A stretch of DNA of 53,597 nucleotides. Source: an uncultured Bacteroidota bacterium. Lineage in GTDB: Bacteria > Bacteroidota > Bacteroidia > NS11-12g > UBA9320. The translations under genes were made by a program, and so were the position numbers. Under the pieces are notes generated by a model that saw only the letters and a program-made list of their open reading frames with translations, did no database searches and had not been told where the DNA came from. The DNA lies in assembly GCA_913043145.1 (NCBI GenBank), contig CAJWLP010000008.1, positions 1 to 53,597 on the forward strand, given 5' to 3'. Shown one piece after another: positions 21,600 through 34,087 of the stretch. Each line of letters starts with the position of its first letter. Within the stretch, counting starts at the first letter, position 1.

Positions 21600-24500
21600 T
21601 TAATTTCTAATCAAGTCTACAGAACCTTCAATAGGTCCTTTACCTTCATTTTTCTCACCAAATTTAAATGTGTAGTTTATGATGTAGAAGTAGGTTCCTT
21701 CAGGGCATTCTTCTCCGGTATTGTTAACTTTACCGTTCCAAGAGTAGTTAATATCAGTGGACTTGAAGACAGACTCACCCCATCGATTAAAGATTTTAAT
21801 TTCGTATTCATCAAGGCTTTCTCCTTCAACTACGAATTCAGTGTTTTTATCATCGTCGCTGTTAGGAGTGAAGACGTTGTATGGGACAAGTCGTCTCATA
21901 AACGTATTTGATATTGTTTGACAAGTGTCGTCCTCACAACCTTCTGAGCTGATTGCCGTAAGACATACTTGATAAACACCTTTTCGTTCACCCCAATTAT
22001 AACATGGGTCTGTTTCTTCACTAGAGCCATCTACCTCAGGATCATTTTCTTCGAACGTCCATTGGTAGCTAATAGCTCCAGTTGATGTATTAGTGAAGCA
22101 GAATTCTGGTCTTGCAGAGCTATCGATATCGAAACTTGCTTTAACGTCAACTACTCTGACTCTAATAGTATCTCTATCCCAACATCTTGGTAATTCATCA
22201 TATTCAGGTGCTAAGACAACATCATATACGCCAGGATTAGGATAAGCGTATGTTACGGTTGTATCAGGTACATTTTCGTTAATCTCATCATCATTGTACC
22301 CCATTAACCATTTTAATCGAATATATCGGTCATCTAGAATACCCGTAAATGTTATAGGATCATCAGGACAAACTAACGTATCTGATGCAGTAATTTCTAC
22401 CTCAGGGCGAGGATTCACAATAACTACAATTCGACGTTGAATCAGTAGATCTGGATTTGTATCTGGGAAAATTCTTGAACAACGATTACCCGTTCCTGGT
22501 ATTTCATCTTCTTGGATTAAGAACAATTCATAGGTTCCTGGAGTCGTATAAACATGACCAAACACAGAGTCTATATCACCAGGAGGGTTGTTACTTCCGT
22601 CTCCCCAAATGATTTGGAATTTAGGATTATTTACATCTCCTTGACTAGTATTTTTAAGGTTAACTAAATCATTCACACAGATTACTGCTGTATCATTGGT
22701 GTTCCATACATCATTATCAAACTCAAATCTTGGTTGTGGACCAGGAATATATAGTTGTCGTTTGATACTATCTATACATCCGAGTTGAGTTGTAACGATA
22801 AGTGTTACAGTGTAAGTTCCACCAGATGTGTAATTATGAGATGGATTTTGGAGTATACTTTTTCTAGTTCCGTCCCCGAAATCCCATTCCCATGCGATAA
22901 TTTTCTCACAAGATAAGTCAGTACCATTGGTGCAGGTATCTTTTGCAGCACATGGGTCAATCACTGAAGTTGTGTCTTGGAAATTAATAATGGATGCACA
23001 ATTCACAATTTCACTTCCAAAATCAAATCCAGGAATAACCTTAGATACATAAGCTTTCAATAAAGTAGTATCTGTACAACCAATACTATCCTCAGCTACA
23101 ACGGTAATTGTGTATTCTCCTGGTTCAGTGTAGGTGTGGTTTAGGATTATAGAACGAGTACTATCAAATTGGCCATCATTAATATCCCAATCTGCTCGAT
23201 AAGTTTCCTTATTTGTAATATATCTTGTTTGCCACAATGGGAAATCGTGAATTGGATAGGTTAGTGGATCTTGCTCCCCATATTGATAGTATCTTAGGGA
23301 ATCTTCAATAACAAGATTTAGACCTTGACATAAGTTCTCATTACTTACCCAGAAGTCGTTGTAAAAACCTACGTTTAAGAGTTTGGTAGATCTTGCCTCA
23401 CAACCAGGAGTACTGTTTAAGAATAGAGATGGTGCCATTGGTCCACTACCATTTTTATAAATGGTATCCTTCACACCAGGATTACATTCGTCTGGATTAG
23501 TAATTACAGGATATTTATAGATGTGTCTATAAAGACCAGTTAACATGTCCTTCTTACCATCAAAGTTGGTATCCAACATAAGGGTGTCAAATCCTTGCAT
23601 AGACGAGTCTCTGAAGTGTAGAATGTGTTGTGTTTCTATTTGAACATTTGGGGTTACACTTGTATCGGTACGATATATTTTATCACCTACACGTGATACA
23701 CCCCACTCACCGGTTTTGTCAGAATATACTTCTTTACCAAATTGGAAAAGAGCACTTATTCCAGTTGTATCTAAACAACCATAGGTTCCATCTCCAAGAT
23801 AATATGGGATATCTTCTGCTGGTATTTCATTGTAGTTTAGATTTAATAATTGTTCAAAGGCATCTTTAATTAGTCTGTCGGTGTTTGTTTTGATTGCGAC
23901 AGTTTTCCAATCTTTAATGATAGAAGTGACAATAGTATCCAATAATTCTTCACCTAACACATCAGTAAGATTTCTGCGAACTACATAGTTATACAACCAA
24001 TCCTCGCCATTATATACAATGTTTTTATCGTTTCTGTTTGGCCTAGGACCAGTATAAGGTTCATAATACTTGAATTCTTCTACATATATCGATAGCTTAG
24101 GACCTTTTCCTAAACCTTGGTAACCCCATGCCCATCGAAGTGTTTTGATACTATCTTGAATTGGGTTAGTAATTCTGTAGTATGCGGTATCTCCTGGGCA
24201 CATGTAGTACTGTAAAGGAGTAGTGCTAATAGGTGTTGGATATACAATATCAAAACTAGCATCGAGGGGTAATATTCTAAATAAATCTGGATAGTAGAAT
24301 GTATCTAGACATGCAGGAGGCCCTCCATTAGGATCTGGTTTACCGTTTCCAACAATCAATCCAAGGGCGAATGAACCAATTGGATTTCTTGCATAGGGAT
24401 CTCCTATTTGACCTGGAGTATATCCTTTGACAAATTGAGTGCCCAGATTACCTCGTATATCATACGGAAGTACGAAAGGTATGGGGAGCCCTGGTGGTGG

Positions 24501-27392
24501 TGGAGCCAAGAGCCCTTGGTTGAATGGAATAAAGGCATTTGGGTCAGCAAAAGTATCTAGATTTACTGCAAACCACTGTTGTGTACAGCCTGGCTTAGTC
24601 TCAGATATATCAAAAGTGAGAATATAATTTAAATTGTTCCCATCAAATGGACAAGGTGTTCCACTAACCCATTCTAATCCTTTTGCATTTGGTGGGATAA
24701 GTGCTAATGATTTTGTACTCGTAGACTCACATAACAATGGATGAATTGTATCTTTTTGCCAAAGAGAAACATTAAAACATACTGCTTGATCAGTAAACCA
24801 TTTTTCGCGGTGACCTGCTGAGTCAACAAACACAGCTTGTTTTACGACCCTTACAGGGATACCAAACCTTTCTTCTTGAACAACGTAAGCAGATGGTTGA
24901 GCATAGGTGGTGTCAGGATCGTTTTCTTCAATATATATTGTTGGAGTAATTGAATCAAGACTATACAAAGTAAACTGTTCGTCAGCTTCAATAATGACTT
25001 TTCTTGGACCTGTGATAGATCTGGTCGCACCAGCACCACCACCTCCACCAGGAGCATCAAGTTTTAGTATATCAATAGTGACACCTGCGGGAATATTGAA
25101 TTCCATGTCGTGATATGTTATGGTCCATTGGGTATTTCCTTTTCCATTACGAGGATTATTTCTACCTAATGAATCTTCATTATGTAAGGTAGTGTCTACA
25201 ATATTATTTATTGCAACGAAGGTGTCTCTTGCAGCATCCCAATAAAACTTAGTTCCATAAAATTTAGAGGGTGGACGTCTTACAATCCAATTCCCAAGCC
25301 TATTGTTTGCATAAGTTACACCTGCTGGAATATTCACACCACGATAAGTGTAGGATGAGTCAATTGGAATTGTTAAGACTGTATCGCCAGGAACAATCAT
25401 GGTGTCAGCAGCATAAATGTTTACCACATAGCACTCTCTTAAGGGTTTTGATATTCGGGTCTCTCGGTATGGTTGAGTGTAGTTTCTACCTTCTTGGAAA
25501 GTACTGTAAATTTCGTCCCACGGTGTGTACCAATGGCATGGAGCACTATCAATCACCCAATTACAATTTATGCCGACATTTTTGTTTACCCAAGGTCTTG
25601 AGTCAGTTGTACATTGAGGTGCATATTGGTCTCCCATATCCCACACTCTCCATACATTTGGTCTATAATCTTTATATTGCTCAGCTGGAGGAATAGCGGT
25701 TTGGTCTCCGACTCCAACCCCACCTCTACCTGCTGGAGGTGTATAGTTGAAAACAAATCGCTTTTTCCCATCAACTCCGAAACGATAACTCAAATTTGGG
25801 GCTGCAGCGTAAAAGTCTTTGTGCCAAGTGGTATCGCCTCCACTAATTGCTGCTATGGAGTCTTTTGAAGCATCATAATACACTTTATAGCCATTGTTGA
25901 TGATTGTATCCGTGTTGCCATAAGTAGAATCATTGAGCAGGAAATTACCACGTGGTCTTTCCTCCCAAGTCTTGTAATGCCAAGTGTAAAGTCCTGAACT
26001 GATGTCATACACTCGCTCGAATGTATATTTATAGTAGAAAACAATTGAATCTTCATCCAATTGATTGAAGTCATTTTGATAATAAGAGGAATTATTCGGG
26101 AAACAAACGGTATCTTCAATCACACATTGGTATGCCTGATCTTCTGCAACCCTATCAAATGCAACTTCAATTGTAGATCCAGGGCCGATAACTTGAACGG
26201 TGTCATATACAGTGATATCACATGGTCCTGATTGTAATCTAAGACTAATCATCCAAGGGCCTGGTCCATAAGAAAATTCTGGAGTTAAAGTCCTATCATT
26301 AAAGTTTGGTGGACCCGCTGGAGGATTACCAAAATTCCATAAGAATGAACTCACATTAGCTCCATTTAGTCCTTGAACTGAAAATTCAATTGGATTGTCT
26401 GCCGTACAAGCAGGGTTTGGTGTCGAGATAATTTTGGGTTCTAGCAGAATATTGCCTACAGCTGCTTTAAAAGTAAAGGTGTCACTACATCCATATGCTG
26501 ATGCAATCAGTGTTCCGTCAAATGTTCCATTTTTACGGTACATGTGCTTTATAATTCCTGGTTCAGCTGGATCAAGGCCATTCCACCATTCTGTATTAGT
26601 TGTTGAGTTACCTTTTACAGAATTTCCATCTCCAAATACCCACTCGAAAGAGTCTATGTCTGATAATGGAACCAGTGAAACATTTTTATATACACCTAAT
26701 GTGGAATCACAATTTGGATTTGGGTTAGGTGTCAGGTTTTGAAATTCTATACCTAATTTTGGATAAACGTAGAGGTAATCTTTGAATGATAGTTTGCTAA
26801 CACAACCACTAGAGTCTTCAGATTCTATAACCAAATCAAAAAATCCTCCGCTAGGGTCTGTAATATCTACACAAAATGAGTAAGGAAAGGTCGGGTTTAT
26901 AGAATCTATTCGCAATCCGTTACTGAATACATAGGTTTGCCTCACAATTAGACCACTTGGTGCTTGTGAACTGTCTTGAAAACAAAATAAATTACTTTTA
27001 AAACATTGTGCAGAATCATTCAAGCGTTTAAAATAAATATCCGGTGAAGGCTTAACTGTAATTGTTAACGTTTCGGTACACTGACCTGCAAAACCGTCCC
27101 CTTTAAAGGTAACGGTGTATGTGCCTGCAACAGGGTAGTTGAAGGTGGGTTTCTCAGCACTACTCTTGTTATTGTTGTACCCAAAATCCCACTCAATGGT
27201 AGTGGTATATCCTGGGGAGTTGGCTTCAAATGATATAATTTGACCTTCACAAAAAGTACCTGATGTGCTCAATGTGCCATCAGTTCTGACCACTTTTGGG
27301 CTACATTGGGAATAACCAATGATACTTGATGAGATAAATAACAATGTAAATATGTATTTGATAAATACATATTTTGATCCTGAAATATTCAT
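21600..27392 (-). CDS. Giant PKD-domain surface protein with T9SS type B sorting domain (1930 aa)
   Basis: Third gene of the sigma-factor operon. The signal peptide is MNISGSKYVFIKYIFTLLF and onward to YSQ. I start at the ATG at 27392 because it gives a normal signal peptide; in-frame ATGs at 27413 and 27446 are possible. PKD-like domains are seen near residues 45-125, 250 and 352, then again at about 1400, 1504, 1597, 1694 and 1780 (for example WEWDFGDGTRKS). Between about 430 and 1370 is a region without PKD motifs, including a glycine-rich patch (GGGGGAGA). The last ~90 residues are the gliding-associated C-terminal domain (FTPNSDDDKNTEF, IFNRWGESVF, CPEGTYFY), which directs type IX export. 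Likely an adhesin or part of a surface structure. Confidence 0.9.
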   Translation of the reverse strand: MNISGSKYVFIKYIFTLLFISSSIIGYSQCSPKVVRTDGTLSTSGTFCEGQIISFEANSPGYTTTIEWDFGYNNNKSSAEKPTFNYPVAGTYTVTFKGDGFAGQCTETLTITVKPSPDIYFKRLNDSAQCFKSNLFCFQDSSQAPSGLIVRQTYVFSNGLRIDSINPTFPYSFCVDITDPSGGFFDLVIESEDSSGCVSKLSFKDYLYVYPKLGIEFQNLTPNPNPNCDSTLGVYKNVSLVPLSDIDSFEWVFGDGNSVKGNSTTNTEWWNGLDPAEPGIIKHMYRKNGTFDGTLIASAYGCSDTFTFKAAVGNILLEPKIISTPNPACTADNPIEFSVQGLNGANVSSFLWNFGNPPAGPPNFNDRTLTPEFSYGPGPWMISLRLQSGPCDITVYDTVQVIGPGSTIEVAFDRVAEDQAYQCVIEDTVCFPNNSSYYQNDFNQLDEDSIVFYYKYTFERVYDISSGLYTWHYKTWEERPRGNFLLNDSTYGNTDTIINNGYKVYYDASKDSIAAISGGDTTWHKDFYAAAPNLSYRFGVDGKKRFVFNYTPPAGRGGVGVGDQTAIPPAEQYKDYRPNVWRVWDMGDQYAPQCTTDSRPWVNKNVGINCNWVIDSAPCHWYTPWDEIYSTFQEGRNYTQPYRETRISKPLRECYVVNIYAADTMIVPGDTVLTIPIDSSYTYRGVNIPAGVTYANNRLGNWIVRRPPSKFYGTKFYWDAARDTFVAINNIVDTTLHNEDSLGRNNPRNGKGNTQWTITYHDMEFNIPAGVTIDILKLDAPGGGGGAGATRSITGPRKVIIEADEQFTLYSLDSITPTIYIEENDPDTTYAQPSAYVVQEERFGIPVRVVKQAVFVDSAGHREKWFTDQAVCFNVSLWQKDTIHPLLCESTSTKSLALIPPNAKGLEWVSGTPCPFDGNNLNYILTFDISETKPGCTQQWFAVNLDTFADPNAFIPFNQGLLAPPPPGLPIPFVLPYDIRGNLGTQFVKGYTPGQIGDPYARNPIGSFALGLIVGNGKPDPNGGPPACLDTFYYPDLFRILPLDASFDIVYPTPISTTPLQYYMCPGDTAYYRITNPIQDSIKTLRWAWGYQGLGKGPKLSIYVEEFKYYEPYTGPRPNRNDKNIVYNGEDWLYNYVVRRNLTDVLGEELLDTIVTSIIKDWKTVAIKTNTDRLIKDAFEQLLNLNYNEIPAEDIPYYLGDGTYGCLDTTGISALFQFGKEVYSDKTGEWGVSRVGDKIYRTDTSVTPNVQIETQHILHFRDSSMQGFDTLMLDTNFDGKKDMLTGLYRHIYKYPVITNPDECNPGVKDTIYKNGSGPMAPSLFLNSTPGCEARSTKLLNVGFYNDFWVSNENLCQGLNLVIEDSLRYYQYGEQDPLTYPIHDFPLWQTRYITNKETYRADWDINDGQFDSTRSIILNHTYTEPGEYTITVVAEDSIGCTDTTLLKAYVSKVIPGFDFGSEIVNCASIINFQDTTSVIDPCAAKDTCTNGTDLSCEKIIAWEWDFGDGTRKSILQNPSHNYTSGGTYTVTLIVTTQLGCIDSIKRQLYIPGPQPRFEFDNDVWNTNDTAVICVNDLVNLKNTSQGDVNNPKFQIIWGDGSNNPPGDIDSVFGHVYTTPGTYELFLIQEDEIPGTGNRCSRIFPDTNPDLLIQRRIVVIVNPRPEVEITASDTLVCPDDPITFTGILDDRYIRLKWLMGYNDDEINENVPDTTVTYAYPNPGVYDVVLAPEYDELPRCWDRDTIRVRVVDVKASFDIDSSARPEFCFTNTSTGAISYQWTFEENDPEVDGSSEETDPCYNWGERKGVYQVCLTAISSEGCEDDTCQTISNTFMRRLVPYNVFTPNSDDDKNTEFVVEGESLDEYEIKIFNRWGESVFKSTDINYSWNGKVNNTGEECPEGTYFYIINYTFKFGEKNEGKGPIEGSVDLIRN

Positions 27393-27457
27393 AATGAGAT
27401 TATTATAATTCATAAAAAAGTTTGTAAAGTTAGTTTGCTTCGTCATAATATTCAAAT

Positions 27458-28675
27458 TTAGGGGCGTATTAACGTGAATTTTATATTCTTTGTCTGAGGT
27501 TTTTCTCCTTTTAAGGTGTAATTAATTTTAGCTAGATATTCTCCAGGAGGGCAATTTTCACCAATATTATTTATGCTCCCGTTCCATCGATTCTCAGGGT
27601 TGTCGGATGTAAATATAATTTGGCCATTCCTTTGGTTAAAAATGAGAATCTTATAATTTTCATAGTTACTTATTTCTACCGGGTATTCATCGTTAGTACC
27701 GTCTCCGTTAGGTGTAAATACATTGAAAAACTTAATAGATCCTTCGCTTTTGACTTGAAATGTCGTTTTACTTTTTTCAGCACAAGGAATATTTATGGGT
27801 ACGGTTTTAATTACGTACTCACCTACTAGTTTTTCTTTAAGATGGCATTTGTTTGTATTTTTAGATATTAATGTGTCATCAAGATACCAGTTAGCAAGGA
27901 TGTTTTGATTGTTTATTGAGAATGAGAATGTGTTAAAATCGATTTTTTTAGTGATTATTTGATAGTTAGTTTTCAAGCCTTCAATCACTTCATGAGTTTC
28001 GCCATGCTCGTTTGTAAAAACTATTGAAACAGGTTGGTCAGTATCTGCTTTATATTCAATAAGGTCAGCATTTCTAGAAAATATTTGATTATTAATGTAC
28101 CAGTCTCCCTTGGTCCTGCTTTTCAAGGTGATTATTTCACCGATGCATGGATTAAAATTAGATACATCTAAATTTTCGGGTATTTCCCCGGTATTAATTG
28201 ACTTGTCAGATTCGTCCTCAACAATTTTAAAAGACATTTGAGTTTCCTGAGTACTTTTTGTCTGTAATGTCTGAATTAAAGAGTTTGTCGTACCATTTTT
28301 GAATGTTTTTAACTCTTTTGGGATGTCGTTTAGATCTTTTTCAATGCTTTCAGTGTCTTGCATATTTACAGTAGAGTCTGCAATGGTTCTGAAAGAATGC
28401 TCAGATATAGTATCGTTTAGATCTTTTATTGGGGAGTTTTTATTTTTTACTGCAAAAAATAGGATGGTAGCAGAGGCCCCAATAATTGAGACCATCTTAA
28501 TTGCTTGAATTGGATTTTTAATTAATTCAATAATTTTTGAAGTTTTTGCATTAGATTGCTTTATGGATGAAAGGTCAAAATTTTCTATAATTGATGATGG
28601 TGGTGGAGTAGCATGATTCTCAAGTTGGTCTTTGAGTAGTCTTTCAAATTCTGATATGTTTTTGAATTTTTTCAT
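27458..28675 (-). CDS. Putative anti-sigma factor with periplasmic Ig-like repeats and T9SS type B-like C-terminus
   Basis: 405 residues without signal peptide. A ~56-residue cytoplasmic N-terminus (ISEFERLLKDQLENHATPPP) precedes one membrane segment (about 57-77, MVSIIGASATILFFAV), so the remainder should be periplasmic. That part has an acidic linker, two similar Ig/PKD-like units (DWYINNQIFSRN about 191; NWYLDDTLISKN about 262), and a C-terminal ~90-residue gliding-type sorting domain (FTPNGDGTNDEYPV, CPPGEY, ending FTLIRP). It starts inside the sigma factor's stop codon (TAATG), the classic position of an anti-sigma gene. The anti-sigma role is inferred from position and topology; I see no named anti-sigma domain. 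The sorting-type domain on an inner-membrane protein is unusual. Confidence 0.8.
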   Translation of the reverse strand: MKKFKNISEFERLLKDQLENHATPPPSSIIENFDLSSIKQSNAKTSKIIELIKNPIQAIKMVSIIGASATILFFAVKNKNSPIKDLNDTISEHSFRTIADSTVNMQDTESIEKDLNDIPKELKTFKNGTTNSLIQTLQTKSTQETQMSFKIVEDESDKSINTGEIPENLDVSNFNPCIGEIITLKSRTKGDWYINNQIFSRNADLIEYKADTDQPVSIVFTNEHGETHEVIEGLKTNYQIITKKIDFNTFSFSINNQNILANWYLDDTLISKNTNKCHLKEKLVGEYVIKTVPINIPCAEKSKTTFQVKSEGSIKFFNVFTPNGDGTNDEYPVEISNYENYKILIFNQRNGQIIFTSDNPENRWNGSINNIGENCPPGEYLAKINYTLKGEKPQTKNIKFTLIRP

Positions 28676-29217
28676 TATTCAAACCATCCTTTTAATTTTA
28701 TTTGAAGCTGTTTACGTGCCTTAAATAACTGTGTTTTACTGGTGCTCTCAGAAATATCAAGCATTTCAGAAATCTCTTTGTGGGAATACCCATCGATGAC
28801 ATACATGTTGAATACTGTTCGATAACCCTGAGGAAGTTTTTGGATCAAATCAATCATTTTCTTAGCATCCAAAGACCCAACATTTATTTTAGATGTTGTC
28901 TTGAATTCAGAGTCTCTTATGTCATTGATGTTTTGGTGATATTTTTTCTTTCGTATAAGCTCTATGCTCGTATTAATAAATATTTTTTTCATCCAACCTT
29001 CAAAACTCCCAGAAAATGAATAAGATGATATTTTATTAAACACTTTGATAAACCCTTCCTGCAAAGCATCTTGGGCATCATTATGTGAATTCATATATCT
29101 TAGACAGATACTATACATTAGTCCGGCGTACTTATTATATATTTTATTAAAAGCGTTATGATCTCCATTGCTGCAAGCTTTTATTAATGATATGTCATTA
29201 TGTTTATCATTGCTCAT
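28675..29217 (-). CDS. ECF RNA polymerase sigma factor
   Basis: 180-residue sigma-70 family protein with only regions 2 and 4, as in ECF factors. Region 2: AFNKIYNKYAGLMYSICLRY, then DAQDALQEGFIKVFNKI and the -10 recognition helix segment ending FINTSIELIRKKK. Region 4: LIQKLPQGYRTVFNMYVIDG followed by the helix-turn-helix YSHKEISEMLDISESTSKTQ. First gene of an operon with the putative anti-sigma factor (one-base overlap) and the giant surface protein (the anti-sigma stop is at 27458). The targets probably include this operon, but no matching promoter is recognisable here. Confidence 0.93.
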   Translation of the reverse strand: MSNDKHNDISLIKACSNGDHNAFNKIYNKYAGLMYSICLRYMNSHNDAQDALQEGFIKVFNKISSYSFSGSFEGWMKKIFINTSIELIRKKKYHQNINDIRDSEFKTTSKINVGSLDAKKMIDLIQKLPQGYRTVFNMYVIDGYSHKEISEMLDISESTSKTQLFKARKQLQIKLKGWFE

Positions 29218-29272
29218 CGCATGGATTACTTATTAGATGTTACTATAATAAAAATAGTTGTCCGTAAATCAG

Positions 29273-29737
29273 TTAAATTTTTTTAACGTGGTATTTTTCG
29301 GCAAGATATTCTTTTAAGTTTTCAGCATAATAACCAACGGCCTCAATAGGTTCAATAATTTCAGTTTCATTTAACCCTTCCAAAATACGTTTGTATTGTA
29401 TGCTTATAATTTTTTGTTGAGCATTGGCTACGAATTTTGCAGAAAAAAGATGAAAGTTAAGATGAGCTAATTCTTCCATAAATTGCCCTAAATGTTCTTC
29501 ATGAGGATATTCACAAATAGGGGAAACAATTTGGAATATTCCGGCAATCTTTTCACGATCAAAATATTGCCATTGACTGGTTTGTTCAGGTTGCCATATA
29601 TCAACATAAACCTCAGTAGATTTACCCCTAACAATTACATATTCACCGTCATTTTTACAGCGAATCTCTTCAGGTTTTATATTTAGGTGTTTTTGAATTG
29701 ATTTTTCAAATAGCTGGATTGCTTTATTGACTTGCAT
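29273..29737 (-). CDS. YbjN-domain-like protein (154 aa)
   Basis: Small cytoplasmic protein. Its alpha/beta pattern (long N-terminal helix, DGEYVIVRGKSTEVYVDIWQ, then the long helix LGQFMEELAHLNFHL and strand HLFSAKFVANAQQKIISIQYKR) resembles the YbjN / type III secretion chaperone-like family. Proteins of this kind may act as chaperones or stress-related adaptors. No catalytic motif is seen. A perfect TAnnTTTG box (29748-29755) lies 10 bases before the ATG. Confidence 0.7.
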   Translation of the reverse strand: MQVNKAIQLFEKSIQKHLNIKPEEIRCKNDGEYVIVRGKSTEVYVDIWQPEQTSQWQYFDREKIAGIFQIVSPICEYPHEEHLGQFMEELAHLNFHLFSAKFVANAQQKIISIQYKRILEGLNETEIIEPIEAVGYYAENLKEYLAEKYHVKKI

Positions 29738-31112: not shown

Positions 31113-31538
31113 ATGAGCAAATTTAATATACGCGTTTATGGTATTTGGATTAAAAGTAATAAAATATTACTAAGCCACGAAAATATTGATGGATATGAAA
31201 TGACAAAATTCCCTGGTGGAGGATTAGAGTATGGAGAAGGAGCTCTAGAATGTTTGAAACGTGAGTTTATGGAAGAATTGGGTGTCAAGATAAGCCAAAC
31301 AAAGCTAATCAATGTCTCAGAAAAATATATTCAAAGTGCATTTAATGAAGATGAACAAGTCTTAGCAGTTCATTACCTTATTAAGTCTGAGGACAAGATT
31401 AAAAATTACGAGATTATTCAAAATACCCGTGTGGGAAAATTCAATCAGCATCTTTTTAAGTGGCACGAATTAAGCCCAACTATTATGAATATTTTAACTT
31501 TTGAAATGGATAAAGAAGCGTTTTGTAAACTTCAATAA
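31113..31538 (+). CDS. Nudix hydrolase
   Basis: 141 residues. The Nudix box GGLEYGEGALECLKREFMEE continues to LGV and has the expected G, E, REx2EE and G residues that bind magnesium and cleave nucleoside diphosphate-linked substrates. The PGGG just before it and the N-terminal RVYGIWIKSNKILLSHE strands are typical. The substrate is unknown; general Nudix proteins clean up oxidised nucleotides or act on NDP-sugars or ADP-ribose. It starts five bases from the divergent pyrC, and its end overlaps the convergent surface-protein gene by seven bases. Confidence 0.92.
   Translation: MSKFNIRVYGIWIKSNKILLSHENIDGYEMTKFPGGGLEYGEGALECLKREFMEELGVKISQTKLINVSEKYIQSAFNEDEQVLAVHYLIKSEDKIKNYEIIQNTRVGKFNQHLFKWHELSPTIMNILTFEMDKEAFCKLQ
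31118..31125 (-). promoter_or_regulatory. Bacteroidota -7 box TAAATTTG inside the Nudix gene
   Basis: Exact TAnnTTTG on the minus strand, 10 bases before the pyrC ATG and within the first codons of the divergent Nudix gene. If used, the pyrC promoter sits entirely inside its neighbour. Confidence 0.4.
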
Positions 31539-34087
31539 ATGGGCTGGACGGTACCTTTAGAATTTCGAGTATTCCCATCACAACCTCTGTAGTTAACATA
31601 GTAAAAGAAGGTTTCATTTGGAACTTTTTTCCCTTGATATGTTCCATCCCAATTATCTGTTAATGAAGTTCTTGAGTCGAACACTTTTTCTCCCCACCTA
31701 GAGTATATGATAATGTAGTATGCTGGCTGAGCGACATCAATTTGATATGGGAAAAGTTCATTTAAGTTATCCCCATTTGGGGTAAATGCATTAGGGAAGT
31801 ACATTTCATTGGGTAGAGCATTTTCATCTACTGTAATAAATAGACTATCTGAGCCTATACAGCCAAAATTATCTGTAACCGTAACTTTGTAGAGTCCTTC
31901 CAAAATGGTTGTAATGCTTTGCCCACTACTTTCATCATTCCATAAATATTTTACAAATCCAGATGGGGCTGATATGGTTGTAGGGGAGTTGATACAAATG
32001 GTTGTATCACTACCCAGATTGAAAGTGGGGGAGTTGGACACACTTACCAAAACAGAGTCTGAGTTGGTACACCCATCTTTATTCTCAACGAGAACACGAT
32101 ACTTTCCTGGAGTGCTCACATTGATTGTTTGTGTGGTATCACCATTATTCCAAGAATATTTTATACCATCAGAACCAGCGTCTAATGTAGTAGCGATGAA
32201 ATCACAAAAGTGTTGGTCTTCACCCAATTCAAGATCAACGCCAGAATTGTCGATGATGAACGTGTCGGAGTTAATACATTGTCTTTGAGTTAATTGAATC
32301 CAACGTTTACCAGGACTTATGTACGATACAGCTGAAGCGGAGCTACCATTATCCCATAGATATTCAGCTTCTTCTATACCTGATAGGTCAACTAAATGGT
32401 TGAATTCATCACAATAAAACGCATCTGCCACTTTGGGATGAGTTGCTTGCCATACCCGAATGGTATCTTTAATTATACAATTTAGGTTCATAGCGGTGAC
32501 TATGTAATCCCCGGCAGAATTGACATTTAGCTTTTGGGATAATGTAGGAGGGGTTGTATTCCAAGAATAGCTCAGGCCAGATATGCCAGCATCTAAAATT
32601 ATATCAATGAGTGTATCACATTCCAAAGTATCATTTGGCAATCTCAATGTAGGAACTTTATCATATGTTAATTGAACGGTATCTTTATAAACGCATTTTC
32701 CATAGGATACCGTTGGTATATATGTCCCAGTATCGCTAACTGTTATTCTGCTTCCTGTAGCTCCAGTATTCCAATTTACGGAGATAGCATCTGGTGCTTT
32801 TGTGTCAAGTAGGATAGAGAAATCATTACAGAATATACGATCTGGCCCTAAGTTCACATCTTTAGTGGATCGAATCCGAACACCATATTTGTACGTATCG
32901 TTACATATAGAAGAGATGATGGTCAAACTAATAGTATAATCACCATTTCCAGGATATACATATTCAACTTTATCATTTAGGTTGAATGTTGTTAGTGTAT
33001 CATTCTTGGTAGTTGGATCTCCAAAATCCCAAAAGAACTTTACTTTGGGTGTTTTCACTTTATTCCAGTTACTTATGTTGTTGAAACGAGCAGTATCCCC
33101 ACATTCAAATGCATATGAACCGCCAACTGCTGTCCCTCCTGGTATGTTGAAATTAGCAATTACATCAAATTGACAATCAATGACTGTAAATTGGTAATCG
33201 CTTAATGTAGAGCCAAGAAGGCTCCCATTTCGATATTCAAGTACTCGAACACCAACGGCATAAGTTCCTTTAGCTGTGGGAGTGAGTGTATATTTCCCTG
33301 TTTGCCTATTAATGAAACTAGAAGGGCTCCCTGTAACTTGATTGTTGGAAGAGAAAGAAGGATTCCATGTTAATAATGCATATGGAGGAGGGCTAGGATT
33401 TTCTGGTTTTGGATCTGTAGCTGATCCACCCAAGAAAGGCGTATAAAATTCATAAACCAGAGAATCGCCATCTGGATCTTGAGCACTATAGTCTAATGTC
33501 AGAGGAGCGTTGATACATACATATGTTGGAGGTATATTTTTGAATCTTGGACTTGAATTATTAGTGCTTGAAGGAGGGATATAACTCCAATAGGTTGACC
33601 CTGTGTTTCCGGCATCGTTTACATTATCTGTAATTGCATTTCTGCAACAAAGTTGATGAGAAAGAATAAGCCCATTTGTGCCAGGATTGAGGAATACTGT
33701 TTTTTTGTAGGTATATTGAACTACACAAACACCAGAAGGTTCTTTAACGCATTCATAGTTTACCGAATTGACGACTTTTCTAACACCATTATTTAGTGAT
33801 ATGGTCTGTTTGCGTGCATTGGTAACAGCATCGAACACACCAATGTATGCAAGATTTCCATCTCGATCAATTGTTCCAGGATTAGCATTCTGACAATCAA
33901 AATAAATTTTGAAGACTATTTCATACCGAACATTACCAAATTGATTCAGCACTCGATTATAATACAATTCTCCACCGACTACATGGGAGGCATTAGAGGA
34001 AAAAGTACAGATCAATAGCATCAATATAACAGCTAGAGCACGAACTTTAGAAATAAAAAACTGGTACGTATATGATGATGTTTTCAT
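31532..34087 (-). CDS. PKD/Ig-repeat surface protein with T9SS type B sorting domain (851 aa)
   Basis: The N-terminus has a signal peptide followed by ASHVVGGELYYN, a start I know from many large Bacteroidota gliding-associated surface proteins. A cysteine-rich region (CCRNAITDN, about 145) and a DPDGDSLVYEF segment follow. One PKD domain lies near 345-395 (FFWDFGDPTTKN). From about 410 to 770 there are at least five similar ~85-residue units, each with a YSWNNGDTT-like strand and a GxYxVxV strand. The C-terminal domain (FPNAFTPNGDNLNELFP, YSRWGEKVFDS, WDGTYQGK) is the type B sorting signal. Role: probably adhesion or surface structure. It seems to have its own promoter (34102-34132). Confidence 0.9.
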   Translation of the reverse strand: MKTSSYTYQFFISKVRALAVILMLLICTFSSNASHVVGGELYYNRVLNQFGNVRYEIVFKIYFDCQNANPGTIDRDGNLAYIGVFDAVTNARKQTISLNNGVRKVVNSVNYECVKEPSGVCVVQYTYKKTVFLNPGTNGLILSHQLCCRNAITDNVNDAGNTGSTYWSYIPPSSTNNSSPRFKNIPPTYVCINAPLTLDYSAQDPDGDSLVYEFYTPFLGGSATDPKPENPSPPPYALLTWNPSFSSNNQVTGSPSSFINRQTGKYTLTPTAKGTYAVGVRVLEYRNGSLLGSTLSDYQFTVIDCQFDVIANFNIPGGTAVGGSYAFECGDTARFNNISNWNKVKTPKVKFFWDFGDPTTKNDTLTTFNLNDKVEYVYPGNGDYTISLTIISSICNDTYKYGVRIRSTKDVNLGPDRIFCNDFSILLDTKAPDAISVNWNTGATGSRITVSDTGTYIPTVSYGKCVYKDTVQLTYDKVPTLRLPNDTLECDTLIDIILDAGISGLSYSWNTTPPTLSQKLNVNSAGDYIVTAMNLNCIIKDTIRVWQATHPKVADAFYCDEFNHLVDLSGIEEAEYLWDNGSSASAVSYISPGKRWIQLTQRQCINSDTFIIDNSGVDLELGEDQHFCDFIATTLDAGSDGIKYSWNNGDTTQTINVSTPGKYRVLVENKDGCTNSDSVLVSVSNSPTFNLGSDTTICINSPTTISAPSGFVKYLWNDESSGQSITTILEGLYKVTVTDNFGCIGSDSLFITVDENALPNEMYFPNAFTPNGDNLNELFPYQIDVAQPAYYIIIYSRWGEKVFDSRTSLTDNWDGTYQGKKVPNETFFYYVNYRGCDGNTRNSKGTVQPIY

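Follow-up and report, generated by a model that had tools for sequence, protein, structure and literature searches.

FlgM, the small soluble anti-sigma factor of the FlgM-sigma28 export checkpoint, is itself an exported protein. The locus described here resembles this checkpoint in concept, since an anti-sigma factor would be linked to the apparatus that exports the very cargo under its control, but no export is predicted for the membrane-anchored protein that takes FlgM's role in our proposal. In Porphyromonas gingivalis, a protein with a C-terminal domain (CTD) for the type IX secretion system (T9SS) influences an ECF sigma factor in the PorA-PorXY-SigP pathway (PMC7712824). Our locus likewise connects a T9SS CTD with an ECF sigma factor. 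PorA, however, is a separate surface protein that acts via a two-component system, whereas in our locus the presumed anti-sigma factor itself carries the CTD-like domain. PorP-like proteins have been suggested as the anchors of T9SS cargo with a type B CTD (PMC9143113), and the CTD of F. johnsoniae SprB has five conserved type B motifs, three in strands and two in loops, each of which was reported to be necessary for secretion (PMC12618676). The giant protein of our locus is cargo of the kind that uses PorP/SprF shuttles (PMC12618676, PMC9143113), and the C-terminal domain of its neighbor, hereafter the middle protein, is homologous to such CTDs; unlike that cargo, the middle protein carries a transmembrane (TM) helix, has no signal peptide by hydropathy, and lacks strand hallmarks of the domain.

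In the Dma anti-sigma factors, according to the available part of the Dma2 paper (PMC13088901), a gene directly after that of an ECF sigma factor encodes an N-terminal sigma-binding motif, a TM helix, a long disordered tether, and an outer C-terminal module, and the effect of a dma2 deletion requires the sigma factor das2. That part of the paper names no signal for the Dma proteins, and neither "T9SS" nor "type IX" occurs in the paper's text. The middle protein follows the same plan as Dma, but the beta-barrel is replaced by (Ig-)CHU_C. The T9SS sorting-type outer domain in place of the barrel and the giant T9SS cargo in the operon are what is new here relative to Dma. In a literature search for T9SS or CHU_C with anti-sigma factors, ECF21, or Dma, the same architecture was absent from the titles and abstract openings among the matches listed, a scope that left subscription papers mostly outside. 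A preliminary description of the locus had held that no system of this form was described; this stands for the C-terminal domain, whereas the remaining parts are shared with the Dma family (PMC13088901).

The window, i.e., the whole stretch of 53,597 nucleotides that was analyzed, carries the three genes consecutively on the minus strand; the order of sigma factor, one-pass membrane protein, and giant protein given in the preliminary description was confirmed by the ORFs and Pfam. The ECF sigma factor (28675..29217, minus strand; 180 aa) matched PF08281 (r4_2, 64 bits) and PF04542 (Sigma70_r2, 51.3 bits), and, with regard to the ECF21 group expected of a Dma partner, scored 97.4 bits against TIGR02985, under the NCBIfam cut-off of 126.4. 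The middle gene (27458..28675, minus strand) encodes a 405-aa candidate anti-sigma factor that is Dma-like and has a CHU_C-type C-terminal domain. It begins, as had been noted, inside the sigma stop codon, since the two genes overlap by 1 base, the final A of the sigma TAA being also the A of the middle ATG. The gene for the giant type B T9SS cargo (21600..27455, minus strand) is an ORF of 1951 aa with PKD domains and a C-terminal CHU_C domain, which opens with TTG after a 2-base gap. The earlier length of 1930 residues holds from an alternative ATG at 27392 (ORF residue 22) but not for the full ORF from TTG. A hydrophobic, signal-peptide-like stretch follows this ATG by hydropathy. The C-terminal domain of the giant scored 67.5 bits against CHU_C and 40.2 bits against TIGR04131, both above cut-off; with these matches, the hydrophobic N-terminal stretch, and the strand motifs, the giant has the characters of type B cargo. 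The gene directly upstream of the sigma gene (29273..29737, minus strand; 154 aa) has weak TY-Chap/YbjN-like similarity and is a frequent neighbor, with relatives in 59 loci, mostly of the order and some of them overlapping. A second type B T9SS cargo of 851 aa lies on the same strand (31532-34087, minus), and its position is kept in near relatives.

Conservation of the three genes was examined in 58 genomes from two families, which were searched with the middle protein, and the regions found were then annotated. The full order of sigma factor, middle CHU_C protein, and giant CHU_C protein on one contig was observed in 44 of the 58 genomes and in 17 of 19 genera. A sigma factor was found in all complete triplets; in G053 (locus L153), which is counted in the 44 and omitted from the sigma tree and the promoter count, it is split over two overlapping frames. 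The cluster was cut by contig ends in 12 more genomes (G002, G005, G007, G012, G015, G017, G018, G022, G027, G032, G045, and G056), in which the remaining parts fit; G032 and G056 show the giant only in parts, and G002 shows the sigma side only. In two of the 58 genomes, G016 (67% complete) and G043, the triplet was not seen. The gap between the sigma and middle genes ranged from -31 to +78 bases with a median of -1 (44 distinct middle genes of the order), and that between the middle and giant genes from -14 to +271 bases with a median of 4 (n = 40). The middle proteins were 282-447 aa long (49 rows, of which 48 are distinct and 3 lie outside the order), their strongest hydrophobic window having a median start at residue 57 (43-87; same rows), and the giants 1604-2089 aa (41 rows, 40 distinct). 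Identity to the window's giant was 87-95% in the nearest species and 27-60% in others, and in the farthest giants the best single segment spanned only 22-69% of the query. The middle protein was less conserved than both the sigma factor and the giant in all 23 pairs compared.

Residues 351-1320 of the giant, its central part, were found in 98 of the order's 108 genomes, including 63 of the 64 of good quality, and beyond the order in 3 of 145 other genomes drawn from the class, all three from one family; each of these three outside giants was preceded by a sigma factor and a CHU_C middle protein. The giant surface protein is close to a signature of the whole order. Downstream of it, the genes differed between lineages in the loci tested (nucleotidyltransferase, TrpS, MnmE, and GSCFA), indicating that the three genes are the unit. 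The survey of co-conservation that the preliminary description had proposed thus upheld the gene order, and its link between the membrane protein and T9SS cargo was supported; random adjacency of the three genes was rejected by the triplet and giant surveys (44/58, 98/108, and 3/3 in the outside family). Paralogues of the giant without a sigma or middle gene beside them were seen in L287, L288, L289, L290, and L296; L298 also holds a giant paralogue, in a locus too short to judge its neighbors.

The N-terminal cytoplasmic motif of the middle protein (residues 1-42; 28550..28675, minus strand) was found by profile search and hhalign to be common to barrel-type Dma-like proteins. The gene that follows the nearest sigma genes in the wider Bacteroidota mostly encodes a protein of 400-600 aa with a TM helix at about residue 40-60 and without CHU_C. 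Nine of the ten outside partners scanned had no CHU_C, and eight of these nine matched OMP_b-brl or OMP_b-brl_2 (E up to 0.01), six of them above the curated cut-off. When a profile was built from about 40 N-terminal residues of the CHU_C middle proteins within the order, with the TM helix left out, 15 matches at E < 0.01 were obtained among 2247 outside ORFs, which came from loci chosen by their sigma genes; all 15 lie directly after a sigma gene. Profile-profile comparison (hhalign) of the CHU-type and barrel-type N-termini gave 98.6% over 43 columns, one of the two alignments being partly chosen from the matches to the N-terminal profile. This homology is drawn from MAG or genome contigs, and the likeness to Bacteroides Dma1/Dma2 from their published description. 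The claim of the preliminary description that the middle protein has the place and topology of an anti-sigma factor is thereby strengthened, the motif being homologous to that of sigma-adjacent Dma-like proteins.

In a survey of the phylum, the N-terminal motif was matched in 160 of 392 genomes (E up to 0.05). Sixty loci were picked from these matches, mostly with frames of >350 aa, and a sigma gene lies directly 5' in 56 of them. OMP_b-brl_2 matched 33 and OMP_b-brl 18 of the 60 picked proteins (E up to 0.001; the two sets may overlap), a share of barrels that is biased upwards because of the preference for long frames. CHU_C was detected in three of the 60 (L209, L228, and L246) by our own profile and in one by Pfam; L209 and L246 were under the TIGR04131 cut-off, and L228 had no match. 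L253 gave a weak match in the survey. On a sigma tree of 169 rows, the CHU label needs 4 changes, versus 43 in shuffles, and the starred branches force at least one. The AlphaFold2 model of a barrel-type protein has helices at residues 7-20 and 27-73, low confidence to about residue 286, and then long barrel-like strands. Compared with the features of Dma anti-sigma factors, the middle protein has adjacency to an ECF sigma gene, the N-terminal motif (by homology to the motif of barrel-type sigma neighbors), one TM helix, and a disordered tether, and it has Ig-Ig-CHU_C instead of the C-terminal beta-barrel. As predicted from its sequence, the middle protein shares the published Dma plan with the barrel exchanged for (Ig-)CHU_C.

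Several variants of this plan were also seen. The window's own genome encodes a second Dma-like protein with an adjacent sigma gene and a weak OMP_b-brl match at its end (L226, contig C56, 977-2455). L036 (8518-10356), L037, L085, and L086 each encode a protein with two to five tandem matches to the N-terminal motif, perhaps to hold several sigma factors. Short Dma-like proteins of 244-289 aa follow the sigma gene in L247, L248, L249, and L250; they lack CHU_C and an obvious barrel, and perhaps represent a third type of C-terminus. L209 (2001-10501), from another family, has a sigma factor, a CHU_C-type Dma-like protein, and two large CHU_C proteins, which are unrelated to the giant except in PKD/CHU_C. 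In the loci of L209, L228, and L246, the other Dma-like genes of the CHU_C type, a search for the giant's own regions gave no match.

The middle protein has a single hydrophobic stretch by hydropathy (residues 56-74), corresponding to a TM helix at residues 55-77 in the AlphaFold2 model (28445..28513, minus strand). By hydropathy alone there is no N-terminal Sec signal peptide; a TM helix follows after about 55 residues instead. The model places two helices in the N-terminal part (residues 7-19 and 27-31), which is of low confidence (pLDDT ~48-64). Confidence stays low to residue 164 (pLDDT <50 at 37-164), and residues 78-164 are predicted to form a disordered periplasmic tether (28184..28444, minus strand). 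Two Ig-like sandwiches (approximately residues 181-313; 27737..28135, minus strand) and the CHU_C domain follow with pLDDT of ~90. Pfam detected no Ig/PKD units in the middle protein, and the two Ig/PKD-like units of the preliminary description are thus missing by Pfam but appear in the model. The Ig units vary, being missing from the alignment in L129, L133, L138, L142, and L149, and are dispensable; the CHU_C domain is kept in the middle proteins of the order. A search of solved structures gave only a weak match to an Aureispira grappling-hook protein (E 0.0064) among the three listed, and the 50 Foldseek rows listed were mostly tandem Ig/FnIII and adhesin matches.

The C-terminal domain of the middle protein (residues 314-405; 27461..27736, minus strand) scored 57.2 bits against CHU_C (PF13585, cut-off 27) and 44.7 bits against TIGR04131 (cut-off 35), and is a derived type B CTD in which the strand hallmarks are lost. 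This was examined in an alignment of CHU_C domains from 63 middle proteins, 8 of which lie outside the order, together with those of 58 giants and of 19 further CHU_C proteins, the latter including several orthologues of the window's 851-aa cargo; two giant paralogues were kept apart. The Trp of the W-x-G loop was present in all proteins of the three groups (63/63, 58/58, and 19/19). The Arg and aromatic residue of the N-R-W-G strand were found in 1 of the 63 middle proteins, 57 of the 58 giants, and 18 of the 19 others, and the last-strand Gly in 17, 58, and 17, respectively. The aromatic-Tyr pair after G-T-Y, kept in 2 middle proteins and 52 giants, is a less general hallmark because only 7 of the 19 other proteins have it and 12 do not. 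All three strand hallmarks together occur in none of the 63 middle proteins, 51 of the 58 giants, and 7 of the 19 others, and none of the three in 45, 0, and 1, respectively. The preliminary description had called the domain similar to that of the adjoining cargo. Both indeed match CHU_C and TIGR04131, but identity between the middle protein (residues 272-396) and the neighboring giant is 38%, and the middle CHU_C domain differs systematically from those of the giants.

Since the order and kind of the motifs agree, we infer that the three strand hallmarks are the published motifs B, D, and E of SprB. Measured against type B cargo, the middle protein has the C-terminal TIGR04131/CHU_C match and lacks the strand motifs for secretion, provided that this equation with the SprB motifs is right. 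From the loss of these hallmarks, the domain probably keeps its fold and is not a working export tag. Candidate partners of the derived domain are a T9SS shuttle, the translocon, and the giant; alternatively, a dedicated shuttle might tolerate the altered hallmarks and allow export.

A promoter-like motif, GRCAACY-N16-CWTCT, lies just before the sigma gene; in the window, the ECF-type site GACAACT-N16-CATCTA (29234..29262, minus strand) is 17 bases before the sigma ATG. The pattern CAAC[CT]-N16-C[AT]TCT occurred in 33 of 44 distinct sigma-upstream stretches, versus 0.06 expected in letter shuffles, although these stretches are not independent because the genomes are related. The spacer was 16 bases in all 33 when 15-17 were allowed, and the exact motif was missing in the other 11 stretches, several of which have near matches by eye. 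The strict pattern GRCAACY-N16-CATCTW has one site in the window's genome (80% complete), that at 29234-29262, and 35 sites across 19 genomes of the genus, versus 24 for the reversed control; 17 of the 35 belong to the sigma-middle-giant operon, and the other 18 are not above background. A wider T9SS regulon is accordingly not seen with the strict pattern in these 19 genomes, and a wide regulon including, e.g., T9SS genes was rejected as a candidate. A second copy of the motif lies before the giant in two of the three outside-family genomes, those in which the giant is farther from the middle gene. In the 11 loci of the order with a gap of 20-271 bases before the giant, there was no clear second promoter, with one loose match in L152. 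The position of the motif just before the sigma gene suggests that the sigma factor may regulate its own operon through it.

The window's genome encodes the T9SS pore SprA (2439 bits) and three PorP/SprF proteins whose scores exceed the cut-off, and neither SprA nor PorP/SprF was matched on the window contig. With no PorP/SprF match on the giant's own contig, a shared shuttle is a plausible partner.

On balance, we favor as a fairly probable explanation that the middle protein is a Dma-like anti-sigma factor with a CTD-derived sensor, which mainly controls one giant surface protein. By sequence, this explanation builds on the gene order and its conservation, the N-terminal homology, the predicted topology, the domain identity, the promoter-like motif, and the altered tag, and from these we infer that the sigma factor is bound and the promoter used, where the C-terminus lies and what it contacts, which way the signal runs, and how the sigma factor is released. 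The short two-helix cytoplasmic motif would hold the ECF sigma factor, and one inner-membrane helix and the long disordered tether would let the C-terminal module reach towards the outer membrane, a module that is mostly a beta-barrel in the relatives sampled outside the order. The CTD-derived domain would act as a non-exported reader, and its partner would be an outer-membrane component of the T9SS (a shuttle of the PorP/SprF type and the translocon being the likeliest) or else the tag or body of the giant. A change in this contact would free the sigma factor, perhaps by proteolysis. Free sigma factor would then transcribe its own operon, giving sigma factor, more anti-sigma factor as negative feedback, and the giant. 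A more specific version, which we put forward tentatively and consider doubtful, is a T9SS checkpoint in which the decoy tag of the transmembrane anti-sigma factor docks on a cargo-specific shuttle and is not exported, so that occupancy of the shuttle or translocon is read through the entire envelope and transcription of the giant is matched to export capacity.

Two other readings keep the anti-sigma function and change the signal. In one, the Ig/CHU_C part would bind the giant in the periplasm, and unexported giant would be the signal, a product of the operon thus turning the operon off or on. Two observations fit: the giant as constant partner throughout the order and in the one outside family where it was found, and the operon as the only recurrent target of the strict promoter pattern seen in the genus. 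The Ig units are variable or missing, however, and the other CHU_C Dma-like loci (L209, L228, and L246) contain nothing related to the giant's own regions, and we regard this reading as unlikely. The other takes the protein for a general envelope sensor of the Dma type, in which the CTD-like domain would only dock at the outer membrane as the barrel does and T9SS traffic would not be the signal. Such a role would agree with the N-terminal motif, TM helix, and tether being the same as in barrel types, with the four changes of the CHU label on the sigma tree, and with the second, weakly barrel-matching type in the same genome. It leaves the constant T9SS giant in the operon unexplained, and seems improbable to us.

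The preliminary description had taken the C-terminal domain for a plain cargo tag, recognized by the T9SS, which would queue with cargo so that sigma release reports free or blocked export. Its scores above the curated CHU_C and TIGR04131 cut-offs, the T9SS of the genome, and the cargo in the same operon are in line with this idea. The complete set of strand hallmarks, however, is found in no middle protein and in most giants, each of the five SprB motifs was reported to be necessary for secretion (PMC12618676), and the inner-membrane helix, present in place of a signal peptide, should block full export. The idea of plain competition with cargo is weakened by these observations, and we now consider it quite unlikely. 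Finally, it is very improbable that the middle protein is an inner-membrane-anchored envelope protein merely co-transcribed with the sigma factor: sigma binding is only predicted and Pfam anti-sigma families gave no match in the middle protein, but all 15 outside proteins with its N-terminal motif directly follow sigma genes, and it shares the design of Dma, for which the available part of the Dma2 paper reports the dependence of the dma2 deletion effect on das2 (PMC13088901).

If the favored reading of a Dma-like anti-sigma factor with a CTD-derived sensor is true, the outer module of a trans-envelope anti-sigma factor would be exchangeable between a beta-barrel and a T9SS-type domain, and the T9SS would be tied to a dedicated transcription switch within one polypeptide. 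With a modified secretion tag as the outer end, the question of the Dma signal would be narrowed to a few partners, and the cell may sense the building of its surface through this tag-like part.
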